Assembly: GCA_017455585.1 (NCBI GenBank)
Contig: JAFSZU010000113.1
Span: forward strand, 1 to 32,361
DNA: 32,361 nucleotides
Direction: 5' to 3'
DNA from: Bacteroidaceae bacterium
GTDB lineage: Bacteria > Bacteroidota > Bacteroidia > Bacteroidales > Bacteroidaceae
Positions 1,324-4,951 of this stretch are shown in pieces. The position numbers and the translations under genes are program-made. The notes under the pieces are model-generated. The model saw only the letters and a list, made by a program, of their open reading frames with translations, was not told the origin of the DNA and made no database searches. The stretch's first letter is position 1. Every line of letters starts with the position of its first letter.

Positions 1324-1331
1324 TATATTTG
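1324..1331 (+). promoter_or_regulatory. -7 promoter box for the surface-protein leader
   Basis: TATATTTG matches TAnnTTTG and begins 11 bases after the HEPN stop codon. Initiation about 7 bases downstream (around 1338) would give the next gene an untranslated leader of about 380 nt. No clear -33 box was seen. Confidence 0.45.
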
Positions 1332-1337
1332 CCGCGG

Positions 1338-1720
1338 AAACACATCCAATTCATATCATATTCACCATTTAATACCACAAATTGCCTATGACCTAACAAC
1401 GAACAACGGGGAGACCGGCGCACGGTGTGCGGCACTCCCAAGGGACAAACAAGCAAATCACTAACTTCAAATTATTAACTCACGGAGAAGTGCGCTGAAG
1501 ACACGTTCGCAGTCTTATTGATAACTTGAGCTTTCTGCTCTTGTTCTCCTGTCCAAGAAATACCGCCAATTTTTCTATACGAGAACAAGTTGATGAAGGT
1601 TCACGCTTGGCGTGAATCATTGTTACTTGTATGTATAGATGGCTACTTGGCGGTTGCCTTAGGACAGATGCAAGTCTCGAATGGTTTCACGCCTTTTTCG
1701 TTTCTAAAACAAAGAAACGT
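1338..1720 (+). ncRNA. Long structured 5' leader, candidate regulatory RNA
   Basis: This 380-base stretch lacks a gene and holds unusually many complementary segments. Local hairpins: 1408-1412/1435-1439 with inner 1419-1423/1427-1431; 1498-1502/1512-1516; 1598-1606/1610-1618 (9 bp with one G-U, loop of 3); and 1699-1705/1713-1719, which ends one base before the start codon. Long-range pairs: 1549-1554/1662-1667 (6 bp) enclosing 1562-1569/1647-1654 (8 bp). A 9-bp perfect pair 1540-1548/1581-1589 crosses both and would form a pseudoknot. Segment 1609-1616 can instead pair perfectly over 8 bp with 1686-1693, which excludes the 1598-1618 hairpin. This resembles an RNA switch acting on translation start. 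The structure is read by eye; no known family is recognised. Function as a riboswitch, attenuator or protein-binding leader is inference. Confidence 0.5.
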
Positions 1721-4700
1721 ATGAAAACAAGACATTTACTAAGAATCTGTGTTCTGGGGTTTCTAATGACATTATTCTCCAAGAACATTTATGCTCAAGT
1801 AGAATACGACCATACTGAATATGTAACAATAAAGTGCGGTGAAATCATTACACTTGATCCTACAACACTCAGTGGAGAAGCGGGTACTTATTTCCGTTGG
1901 TATCGCAACCATCTGTCTAATAAAAGAAATGTGGCATTTTGTGATCTTGGTTCTGATTTTAGGGTTGGATTGGAGCCAATTAATGAATATTTTGTCAAGA
2001 CGACAATCTCTGGCGCAAATTATTATGATTCTTACAAATGTGATGTTATGGGACTTAAACCTGGAACATACACTGCGGAATTAACATGGCATACAGAATC
2101 TCGTTATTATAATTATAGCGGCGGGACTACAGGGTATGTTTATGTCCGTTGCAAATACATCGTCACAGTAAAAAACACAAGTAATCCGAAACTAACACTC
2201 TCTGTTAACGATACCTGCAAAAGAGTCATCAAAGGTACAAATATCAAGTTTACACCCAGTGTATCAGGTGCCACCGTCTATTGCAAAAAGGAAGTTGGGG
2301 TTTATAAATATCCAGCGTGGTCTTATGGTGGCTATGACGATCACTGGGAAAACACATACCCTTCGTTTGGTGTCACTATAAATGAAAATACAGCAATTAC
2401 AGCCCGTGCTGTTAAACAGGATTATCCAGTAAGTGATCTCTTCCATCGCATTTATGAAGTGATAGAACCTGGGGATTTCCATGTGTTGTTGGCCAATGGT
2501 GCAGATGTTCATTTTAAGATTATCAGCGAAAGTGAAAAGACTTGTGGTGTGTATTTTGTTCCAGGGACAGCTGAAGGTAACTTGCGGATACCGAGCACTA
2601 TAAATGGTTATAAAGTAACTCGTATTCAGAAATCGGCATTCGATGGATGCACAAGATTAACCTCTGTGGAAATACCTGAAAGTGTGGATTCCATTGGAGA
2701 ATATGCGTTTTCTGGCTGCTCTTCATTAAACTCCATAAACATACCTTCTTCTGTAACAGCCATTGGTCGTAATGCTTTTTCCGATTGCATAAGCTTAAAG
2801 AGTATAGAAGTTCCTTCAGGCGTAACTGCATTATCAACCTCCACATTCTATGGCTGTAGCAGTTTAAGCACTATCGCTTTGCACGGAGGACTTACATCAA
2901 TAAAAGGTTACGTTTTTGATCATTGTACCTCTTTGCAACAAATAGAGATTCCATCGACTGTTGAAAGCATCGGAATTCAAGCATTTATGGGTTGTGAGAA
3001 TCTTAAAGAGGTGATTATTGGCAAATCTGTGAAAGAGATAGGAGCACAAGCTTTCAGAAATTGTGAAAAGCTGGAGTCGGTTACATCGCTTATCGAGGAT
3101 CCTTTCGCAATCAATGAAAGGTGTTTTGCCATATATAATGATGCACAAAATTACACAGACTGGCGGTGGACTTCTGCTACCCTCTATGTGCCAAAAGGAT
3201 GTAAGGAGAAATACGCTTCTACTGCGGGGTGGCTGCTCTTCAATAAAATTGAAGAAATTGGAACTCCCGTTCCACCACCAGATTGGGAACCTACAGACAT
3301 TTCCAAGTTGGACAATGTCATCTATCTAGAAGAAATGAGGGCTTCCGCAGGAGGAACAGCAACACTCTCTTTCAGAATGAAGGACTCTGCGGCTATCCGT
3401 GGTTTCCAGTTTGACCTTTACCTACCAAAAGGAGTAACGGCTGTGAAGAATGCAAAGGGACGCATACAGGGGACATTGAGCACAGGGCGTTTGGATGATG
3501 ACGATGAGCATACACTAACGTTCTCGGAACAAGCCGATGGCTCCATTCGCATTCTTTGCGGCTCGCAATATGACGAGACGTTTACGGGTCGCGAAGGTGA
3601 GATAGCCACTCTACAGATTAAGATTGCCGATGACGTGGACGATGGCGAATATCCCATAGAGCTGAAGAATATGCGCCTGTCTGAAACGGATATCAGCAAA
3701 TACTATGACACCGAAAGTGTGGTATCGCGCCTCGTCATCAATTCATATATGCCTGGTGACATCAATGGCGACGGCATTGTCAACGTGAGTGACTATATTG
3801 GCATTGCCAACCATATTCTGGGCAGTACGCCGACAGGCTTCATAGAAAAAGCTGCCGACGTGAACGAGGACAATGTTATCAACGTGAGTGACTACATCGG
3901 TGTGGCCAACATCATCCTGACGGGGTCTCCATTCGGCAACAGCAACAATGTGAAAGCCGCACGGGTGAAAGCTAAGACTACAGACCTCAGCGCAAAGGAT
4001 AATGTTATCTATGTGGAACCTCTGACTGTAGATAAAGGTACGCAAGCCACATTGTCGTTTATGATGAAGAACTCGGCGGCTATCCGTGGCTTCCAGTTCG
4101 ATCTCTACCTGCCCGATGGCGTGACGGCTGTGAAGAATGCCAAGGGTCGCATTCAAGGTTCATTGAGTAGCGGGCGTTTGCCAGAGGACGACGAGCACAC
4201 ATTGACCATACAGGCTCAAGCTGACGGGGCCATCCGCTTCCTCTGCGGTTCGCAGTATGACGAGACCTTCACGGGCCACGAGGGCGAGATTGCTACATTA
4301 CTGGTAAATATTGCCAATGACATGGCCGATGGTGAATACCCAATCATCTTGAAAGGCATGAGGTTGTCGGAAACAGACATCAGTAAGTTCTATGATTCCG
4401 ACAATGTGGAAACTACGCTCACCATTAAAGGTGAAACTGATTTGCCATATATTTCAATAGAAAGTTTCACAATTGACCGTGGCGAAAAGGCAAAATTGAT
4501 GATAGACCTCATAAATTCTAACGATGAAATAAGGGTTATCTATTTTAACTACAAATTACCCAATGGCCTACATGTTATAGAGGTCGGAACTAAGATGGAT
4601 CGTGCATGGAGGTCAGATAATGAATCAGAAGGCTGGATCGGGGTTAGGTCTTCCAAATATTATTCCCCCATAGAAGGACTAGATGGCCCTGTTTTAGAAA

Positions 4701-4951
4701 TGGACTTAGAGGCAGATCAGTCGTTTATTGGTGGTAGCATCATTTTGAGTAACATTCTATTTTTGAAACTAGATGAAACGGAATACTCACAACCCGACTT
4801 GATATATAGTCTCAAGGGTGATGCGATAAAGAATATATCCAATCGGGGAATAAATGTTTTTACTCCTCTTTACAACCTCGCTGGCCAGCAGACAACGCAT
4901 CCGCGCAAGGGTGTTTATATCCAAGGTGGCAAGAAGGTGGTGGTGAAGTAA
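1721..4951 (+). CDS. Secreted BspA-type LRR protein with cohesin-like and dockerin-like modules
   Basis: A 1076-residue surface or secreted protein. The chosen start gives a signal peptide (about residues 1-25, ending in NIYA); the open frame runs 30 codons further up, but that part overlaps the structured leader. About residues 290-470 are BspA-type leucine-rich repeats with the IP-x-SV-x-IG-x-AF-x-GC pattern. About 530-676 and 758-903 are two near-identical cohesin-like modules (AIRGFQFDLYLP), and about 906-1027 is a diverged third one. Between the first two lie two dockerin-like calcium loops, DINGDGIVNVSD and DVNEDNVINVSD. The C-terminus (about 1043-1076; LYNLAGQQ, KGVYIQGGKKVVVK) is the short beta-rich tail typical of Bacteroidales type IX secretion cargo. 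LRR proteins of this kind usually mediate adhesion; carbohydrate or host binding here is inference. It has its own promoter and leader. Confidence 0.85.
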   Translation: MKTRHLLRICVLGFLMTLFSKNIYAQVEYDHTEYVTIKCGEIITLDPTTLSGEAGTYFRWYRNHLSNKRNVAFCDLGSDFRVGLEPINEYFVKTTISGANYYDSYKCDVMGLKPGTYTAELTWHTESRYYNYSGGTTGYVYVRCKYIVTVKNTSNPKLTLSVNDTCKRVIKGTNIKFTPSVSGATVYCKKEVGVYKYPAWSYGGYDDHWENTYPSFGVTINENTAITARAVKQDYPVSDLFHRIYEVIEPGDFHVLLANGADVHFKIISESEKTCGVYFVPGTAEGNLRIPSTINGYKVTRIQKSAFDGCTRLTSVEIPESVDSIGEYAFSGCSSLNSINIPSSVTAIGRNAFSDCISLKSIEVPSGVTALSTSTFYGCSSLSTIALHGGLTSIKGYVFDHCTSLQQIEIPSTVESIGIQAFMGCENLKEVIIGKSVKEIGAQAFRNCEKLESVTSLIEDPFAINERCFAIYNDAQNYTDWRWTSATLYVPKGCKEKYASTAGWLLFNKIEEIGTPVPPPDWEPTDISKLDNVIYLEEMRASAGGTATLSFRMKDSAAIRGFQFDLYLPKGVTAVKNAKGRIQGTLSTGRLDDDDEHTLTFSEQADGSIRILCGSQYDETFTGREGEIATLQIKIADDVDDGEYPIELKNMRLSETDISKYYDTESVVSRLVINSYMPGDINGDGIVNVSDYIGIANHILGSTPTGFIEKAADVNEDNVINVSDYIGVANIILTGSPFGNSNNVKAARVKAKTTDLSAKDNVIYVEPLTVDKGTQATLSFMMKNSAAIRGFQFDLYLPDGVTAVKNAKGRIQGSLSSGRLPEDDEHTLTIQAQADGAIRFLCGSQYDETFTGHEGEIATLLVNIANDMADGEYPIILKGMRLSETDISKFYDSDNVETTLTIKGETDLPYISIESFTIDRGEKAKLMIDLINSNDEIRVIYFNYKLPNGLHVIEVGTKMDRAWRSDNESEGWIGVRSSKYYSPIEGLDGPVLEMDLEADQSFIGGSIILSNILFLKLDETEYSQPDLIYSLKGDAIKNISNRGINVFTPLYNLAGQQTTHPRKGVYIQGGKKVVVK

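Follow-up and report, generated by a model that had tools for sequence, protein, structure and literature searches.

Leaders that act through an intrinsic terminator, such as riboswitches, T-box leaders and leaders controlled by proteins or antisense RNAs, have in common a 5' leader that adopts mutually exclusive terminator and antiterminator-like folds, with a T-tract close to the gene. Plasmid copy control of the pT181/pIP501 type is a case of antisense-RNA attenuation, in which a leader adopts either a terminator or an antiterminator. Known metabolite aptamers keep conserved unpaired bases. Among Bacteroidota, the structured RNA motifs Flavo-1 (RF01705), Bacteroidales-1 (RF01693), Bacteroides-1 (RF01694), and Bacteroid-trp (RF01692) were found by comparison, as tabulated in PMC2864571.

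Here, we analyse a leader RNA in a window of 32,361 nucleotides, the whole stretch of contig JAFSZU010000113.1 considered in this study, from a Bacteroidaceae bacterium (assembly GCA_017455585.1). Its mode of action appears to be like that of a transcription attenuator, and the RNA family and its architecture appear to be new. With the intrinsic-terminator attenuators it shares the position in a 5' leader, the exclusive folds and the T-tract near the gene. In contrast to them, a rod of about 34 bp serves as its competing fold, the helices S3, S4, and S5 vary in sequence from copy to copy and yet pair with themselves, few unpaired bases are conserved, and the family stands before unrelated genes, in Prevotella-type genomes mostly genes of exported proteins. 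Throughout, "Prevotella-type" denotes the genus copies together with the named copies, the latter drawn by an exact Prevotella-like pattern. Leaders of the pT181/pIP501 type resemble the element in their alternative terminator and antiterminator and in their copy-specific, variable pairing arms, but here no antisense promoter signal is seen in or after the element. The four Bacteroidota motifs are likewise structured RNAs, whose cut-offs the window does not reach.

None of the 4227 families of Rfam 15 reached its gathering cut-off on the window, in good agreement with a preliminary description of this DNA, which recognised no known class. A lax search with the segment yielded two matches attributable to chance (E 2.0 and 3.3), which scored 15-16 bits where the cut-offs are 40 and 100, and in lax searches of 30 further loci no match overlapped an element. 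The T-box covariance model matched neither the window nor the 30 other loci in these searches. A literature search, covering largely openly available papers, found no description of this RNA family. Such an RNA does not appear in the accessible parts of PMC2864571, PMC8632094, PMC11109978, PMC9723704, PMC2965389, PMC7366714, and PMC10994844; PMC9723704 lists 64 structured 5' regions, which could hold a family member.

The locus and its relatives

Directly 5' of the leader, positions 591-1313 hold a pair of genes that Pfam assigns to an NTP_transf_2 nucleotidyltransferase and a HEPN protein. The HEPN domain is read from a frame opening only at 945, and another frame is opened by an ATG that overlaps the end of the first gene; the HEPN reading frame seems to be interrupted near its start. 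The promoter box that had been placed after the HEPN gene is there: its sequence matches TAnnTTTG, which we take to be the Bacteroidota -7 consensus. The product of the gene behind the leader matches LRR_5 (E 6e-50) and Dockerin_1 (E 5e-9) in Pfam, and from its position this gene is most likely the one controlled by the leader RNA. The features of the locus are as follows.

1324..1331, + strand: -7 promoter box TATATTTG, matching Bacteroidota TAnnTTTG; predicted transcription start at about 1338
1385..1396, + strand: 5' box CCTATGACCTAA, one of two conserved forms, the other being AGAAACAGACAG
1524..1699, + strand: conserved RNA core (putative switch) with a T-tract at its end; models R1 and R2; fold z -5.5
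1694..1698, + strand: TTTTT tract directly 3' of helix T; a T-run of at least 4 lies near here in 168 of 183 copies
1699..1719, + strand: 7-bp hairpin before the ATG at 1721; not general in the family
1721..4951, + strand: downstream gene; its product is a BspA-type leucine-rich-repeat protein that has a dockerin domain and whose N-terminus is export-signal-like

The core folds at -61.1 kcal/mol, compared with -40.1 +/- 3.8 kcal/mol in 200 dinucleotide shuffles, none of which was as good. A second copy of the leader segment, 78% identical, resides in the same genome. With blastn (E <= 0.001), matches of the segment were found in 31 of 139 genomes of the genus, and 8 of 53 BLAST copies were dropped as incomplete or odd. 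Two covariance models were built, R1 from 43 copies (alignment A1) and R2 from 84 more diverse copies (alignment A5); the window, included in both training sets, scores 160.3 and 147.7 bits, respectively. The palindrome produces antisense ghosts of up to 51 bits, and the count was therefore restricted to matches scoring 60 bits or more. Such matches occur in 38 of 139 genus genomes, in about 65 of 393 genomes of the order, and in 39 of 295 genomes drawn from the class, these 39 including a few members of that order; three weak matches (53-56 bits) came from other classes of the phylum. At looser cut-offs, set on rough covariance E-values, the numbers rise to 89 of 139 and 100 of 393 genomes for genus and order (E <= 0.01) and to 55 of 295 for the class (E <= 1e-5). 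The homologous leaders that the preliminary description had suggested collecting are thus carried by many genomes, often in several copies each. Copy numbers are lower bounds, and one genome (G020) has at least 15 model matches, antisense shadows included.

Among the matches listed by a pattern scan of named genomes, carriers are Segatella copri iAQ1173, Paraprevotella clara YIT 11840, Xylanibacter caecicola, Palleniella muris, P. intestinalis, and Prevotella sp. P2-180, besides many metagenome assemblies. Whereas the other records listed carry Bacteroidota labels, two copies (L194, L207) lie in one assembly labelled Bacillota (NALB_7861_17), which is likely a bin that is mixed or wrongly labelled. 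Positions 1500-1700 of the window had no blastn match in phage and plasmid records, and two exact-pattern scans, which diverged copies could escape, found none in viral contigs.

Two sets of helices on shared strands

In the genus alignment A1, only 53% of the cells of S3 and 33% of those of S5 are paired, owing to misalignment. Helices were therefore assessed by an alignment-free test, in which the 5' strand of a copy is confronted with its own 3' strand or with those of its eight nearest relatives. For this purpose, 183 distinct copies were reduced to 97 below 80% identity, and a separate MAFFT alignment was used solely to cut out the strands. A copy counts as a win when its own partner beats those of its nearest relatives. 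The helices of the core, all on the + strand, are listed with their comparative evidence.

1528..1540, +: S1, hairpin GAGC/GCTC; over 84 diverse copies, 95.5% of cells are paired and all 4 pairs show both-side changes
1541-1548/1581-1588, +: S2, helix on the side of the predicted terminator fold; p 1.8e-4 against nearest relatives (0.015 with a simpler score)
1549-1554/1662-1667, +: S3, helix of the rod; wins in 97 of 97 copies
1557-1560/1572-1575, +: S10, small hairpin; p 2.5e-4 family-wide, the exact pairs in the window being putative
1562-1569/1647-1654, +: S4, helix of the rod or loop-loop contact; 86 of 97 wins, both-side changes at 8 of 8 pairs
1575-1580/1633-1638, +: S5, helix of the rod; 97 of 97 wins
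1585-1590/1625-1630, +: S7, helix of the rod; p 0.0025, 52 of 97 wins, 96.1% of cells paired
1599-1606/1610-1617, +: S6, hairpin on the putative antiterminator side; p 0.0011, 99.7% of cells paired
1609-1616/1686-1693, +: T, putative terminator helix, with an extension 1617-1621/1680-1684; 72 of 97 wins, p 5.9e-8
1625-1632/1668-1675, +: S8, helix, putative inner terminator arm; p 2.9e-6
1641-1643/1656-1658 plus 1645-1646/1653-1654, +: S9, hairpin; p 4.5e-5

The stems 1540-1548/1581-1589, 1549-1554/1662-1667, 1562-1569/1647-1654, and 1609-1616/1686-1693, as drawn beforehand, are all present in the sequence, and so is the pairing of 1599-1606 with 1609-1616, for which we use the register 1610-1617. 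S5, S7, S8, S9, and the TTTTT directly after T are additions of this study.

Hairpin S1 is common to two sets of helices. Set A nests as a single rod, with S3 outside S4, S5, S7, and the hairpin S6. Set B places S2 and S10 on the 5' side and S9 inside S8 inside T, followed by TTTTT. S6 and T, both significant, compete for 1610-1617, which provides an alternative fold excluding the terminator helix. S7 overlaps, and thus competes with, S2 at 1585-1588 and S8 at 1625-1630. It is the weakest-supported helix, and yet the one that makes the folds exclusive on the S2/S8 side; part of its signal may be borrowed from S2 and S8 via the shared strands. The stems of the pseudoknot proposed earlier thus exist, but they may represent two alternative folds, because S3, S4, S5, S7, and S6 nest as a rod incompatible with S2 and S8. 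Coexistence of S2, S8, S3, S4, and S5 in one pseudoknot would fit the covariation as well, and it would leave only S6 versus T as the switch.

Against nearest relatives, S2, S3, S4, S5, S6, S7, S8, and T with its extension are all significant over the 97 copies, and four control pairings in the same copies are null (p 0.98, 0.91, 0.82, and 0.92). A simpler score reveals the same picture, weaker for S2, for S7 (p 0.02), and for T without its extension (p 0.022); with this score S1 does not reach significance (p 0.071). T is paired in 92.4% of cells in genus copies. An all-against-all variant was also run, in which kinship is uncontrolled and a control helix, S11, scores z 2.5. In alignment A5 (84 copies), the rod fold has 91.5% of cells paired and both-side changes at 32 of 38 pairs; the terminator fold has 91.8% and 29 of 38, where the fitting of A5 to the rod model R1 favours the counts of the rod. 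Neither pair count was reached by any of 500 shuffles. The strands of S4 are diverse, e.g., CCGCCAA, CTGGTAA, CGGCAAA, or CTCGAC, each matched by its partner; of its 648 cells, 642 are Watson-Crick, none is G-U, one is A-C, and five are other combinations. Counted over ten helices, G-U cells outnumber A-C cells by 629 to 101. A G-U pair in the sense strand corresponds to A-C in the complementary one, so this asymmetry indicates selection on the transcript of the coding strand, i.e., on the sense RNA. Comparison of the copies thus establishes the helices and their strand sharing as well as the T-tract and the placement before genes. The stems for which compensatory changes had been sought do covary, and a leader with mutually exclusive pairings before a surface-protein gene, as the preliminary description had it, is borne out.

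Two further pairings were rejected. A branch migration of S2/S8 into S7 and S11 (1540-1549/1666-1677) gave p 0.91 and 0.98 in the nearest-relative tests. A helix of 1667-1682 with sequence behind the T-tract gave p 0.014 in order copies and p 0.51 in Prevotella-type copies. At four order-level loci (L143, L159, L164, L132), the complement of the S8 3' strand recurs just after the T-tract, in L143 as AATAAGCAAAT ... ATTTGCTTATT; such a complement might let read-through RNA lock away the terminator strand, a weak case given the family-wide p of 0.014.

Probable transcription attenuation and competing readings

A G+C-rich helix (T), an adjoining T-tract and a gene downstream, as in intrinsic terminators, are all found here. 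Directly after T, a T-run of at least 4 (168 of 183 copies) or at least six T in eight positions (172 of 183) is present. A consensus terminator scan of 1200-1900 did not report T, because its loop is longer than the scan allows; the sole match was S6. On the same strand, an ORF with ATG starts within 60 nt in 155 of 183 copies; by set, and counting copies for which an ORF was found, these are 41 of 43 in the genus, 64 of 68 among named copies, and 50 of 66 in the order. In the remaining 28 copies no ATG ORF begins within 60 nt, for some of them since the sequence compared ends there. The start codon follows the element at a median of 21 nt (genus), 19 nt (named), and 43 nt (order), with 10th to 90th percentiles of 11-40, 12-36, and 0-85 nt, respectively. 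In five loci of distant groups (L315, L320, L322, L323, L329), the T-tract is succeeded by a conserved-looking stretch, which comprises TATAAAC or a similar word and, between this and the ATG, a small stem whose loop resembles GGGACTG.

TAnnTTTG is strongly enriched upstream of the element, with 32 occurrences against 3.25 expected in 42 genus upstreams, 48 against 7.2 for named copies, and 61 against 12.3 for order copies; 31 of the 32 genus boxes lie 160-279 nt before the core, as in the window. Inside the element and the following 60 nt it is not enriched (16 against 26 expected). Readthrough of T is thus probably the only route to the gene. Antisense boxes in or after the element show no enrichment (22 against 16.6 and 22 against 22.0 expected), and an antisense transcript from such a box was set aside.

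On these comparative grounds we regard the leader as a conserved cis-acting two-state transcription attenuator, at a probability of roughly 0.7; termination itself, its regulation, and the rod as the ON state are what we infer from the architecture. On the emerging RNA, S1, S2, and S6 would form first. On the rod route, the downstream arm would zip onto the upstream arm through S5, S4, and S3, and S7 would replace S2 under S6; as the rod then occupies the 5' strands of S8 and T, polymerase would read into the gene. On the terminator route, S2 and S9 would hold, S8 and T would form, and the T-tract would stop transcription about 20 nt before the start codon. Folding in silico, with programs that ignore pseudoknots and kinetics, gives S2 in 90 and S6 in 96 of the 97 copies for RNA cut at 1625. 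When the RNA ends at 1668 or 1678, the minimum-energy fold contains S3 and S4 in all 97; with the full-length RNA it contains them in 93 copies, and S7 in 91. Compared with a fold in which its arms are blocked, the rod gains 11 kcal/mol on average and is the more stable one in 96 of 97 copies. If the rod, as in silico, is the default, S2 or S9 would have to be held by something for termination to occur.

At the 85% level in A5 (84 copies, fitted to R1), the only conserved unpaired positions of the core are the S1-loop T's, two A's that precede S4, and the T-tract, and most of the S3-S5 arms vary freely provided that they pair. This near lack of conserved unpaired bases suggests a trigger other than a metabolite pocket, candidates being a protein, a second RNA, or the speed at which transcription or translation proceeds. 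Tentatively, the S3, S4, and S5 arms might form a copy-specific pairing code that is read out as rod or terminator without a conserved aptamer. Each exported-protein gene would then own a private switch, whose setting would depend on a partner RNA specific to that copy, on a general RNA-binding protein, or on how co-transcriptional strand exchange is timed.

As a special case of the attenuator, a small-molecule riboswitch of a new class, whose ligand would bind at S2/S10/S9 and shift the balance between rod and terminator, is rather unlikely. The architecture is typical of transcription-terminating riboswitches, and in Prevotella-type genomes many copies precede one type of target, exported proteins. 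However, conserved unpaired bases that could bind a ligand are hardly found at the 85% level, and across the class the target genes are diverse.

Control of translation, as proposed in the preliminary description, would have T and the ATG-proximal hairpin mask the start region and the rod free it. In the window, T ends 27 nt before the ATG, and a hairpin adjoins the ATG; hairpins of at least 6 bp ending no more than 3 nt from the ATG occur in 41 of 127 copies tested, against 17 expected from shuffles, among them the close relatives L047, L074, L075, and L086-L088. The 7-bp hairpin at 1699-1719 is present as described, but it is not general in the family. Likewise, the distance from element to ATG varies widely, and the T-tract abutting T has no role in masking. 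Since TTTTT directly follows it, 1609-1616/1686-1693 looks like a terminator stem rather than a mask of the start codon. With the T-tract against T and the gene probably reached by readthrough only, we prefer termination, and a translation switch seems improbable.

Upstream of the core, the 5' box exists in two forms, AGAAACAGACAG and CCTATGACATAG. The alternative boxes AGAAACAGACAG and GCCTATGACATAG lie 90-165 nt before the core in genus and named copies, near the predicted 5' end. ACAGAC occurs in 45 of 108 genus and named copies (4.0 in shuffles), CCTATG in 20 of 108 (1.0 in shuffles). The form CCTATGACATAG often holds AUG-codon-stop, in the window ATGACCTAA at 1388-1396. This could point to an attenuator that senses ribosomes through an AUG-NNN-stop micro-ORF near its 5' end: 24 of 43 genus upstreams have the pattern, where shuffles give 7.0, with a cluster at 120-149 nt, and in order copies 15 occurrences lie 30-39 nt upstream. 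Enrichment is weak in the named (20 of 65 against 13.7) and order sets (26 of 69 against 18.4), and in 45 to 54 of 108 copies AGAAACAGACAG words without AUG stand in its place. Hence, the micro-ORF was rejected as a general feature and not built on, and a ribosome-sensing device is very unlikely. A reading of GCTCTTATTC as boxA-like was also set aside: S1 covaries, and GCTCTT is lost in other groups.

Still less probable is a stand-alone small RNA that merely lies upstream of genes. It would have its own TAnnTTTG box and its own terminator-like end, but the start codon follows on the same strand at a median of 19-21 nt in Prevotella-type copies, and without a promoter signal inside the element little room is left for a separate promoter. 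A mobile or repeated DNA palindrome (MITE, REP-like, or recombination site) instead of an RNA device is hardly credible: the element is overall a large imperfect inverted repeat with many dispersed copies before unrelated genes, as in G020, but the G-U/A-C asymmetry, the mostly fixed orientation and start-codon spacing, the two strand-sharing helix sets, and the T-tract all speak against it, and a possible spread of copies by recombination is compatible with the RNA reading.

Downstream genes and what they imply

A simple hydropathy rule assigns export-signal-like N-termini to 95 of 105 proteins encoded within 60 nt of Prevotella-type copies (38 of 41 genus, 57 of 64 named), compared with 104 of 437 other ORFs in the same loci. 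BspA-type leucine-rich repeats were detected by Pfam in 21 of 100 downstream proteins scanned, each cut to at most 320 residues. In order copies, 19 of 50 downstream proteins are signal-like, and in 21 of 66 the first gene encodes a small helix-turn-helix-like protein, picked by sequence strings; about 15 of these 21 genes, judged by eye, are followed by a gene of an exported protein. Pfam HTH_3 was found in two of four helix-turn-helix-like proteins tested. These proteins are weakly helix-turn-helix-like; a signature similar to IHIGxLIxxxLxxQxRSxxWLA recurs at L155, L136, L139, L142, L151, L165, L170, and others, and in several of these genes the ATG lies no more than one or two bases from where the element ends. 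Order-wide targets also include some methyltransferases and restriction genes. This shift of targets at the order level indicates that surface control is not the whole story. Genes of aminoacyl-tRNA or amino-acid functions are not among the downstream Pfam families listed (25 of 33 and 25 of 31).

If the attenuator reading is true, a fair share of Bacteroidales and other Bacteroidia would possess an RNA family in front of genes of surface or secreted proteins, which in distant groups would also precede small helix-turn-helix-like and some restriction-modification genes. Cultured carriers exist in Segatella copri iAQ1173, Paraprevotella clara YIT 11840, Xylanibacter caecicola, and Palleniella. 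The family would offer a handle on variable-surface expression in gut Bacteroidota and a new architecture of RNA switches. Should the pairing-code reading also be true, the copies would constitute a common regulon for the variable cell surface of these bacteria.
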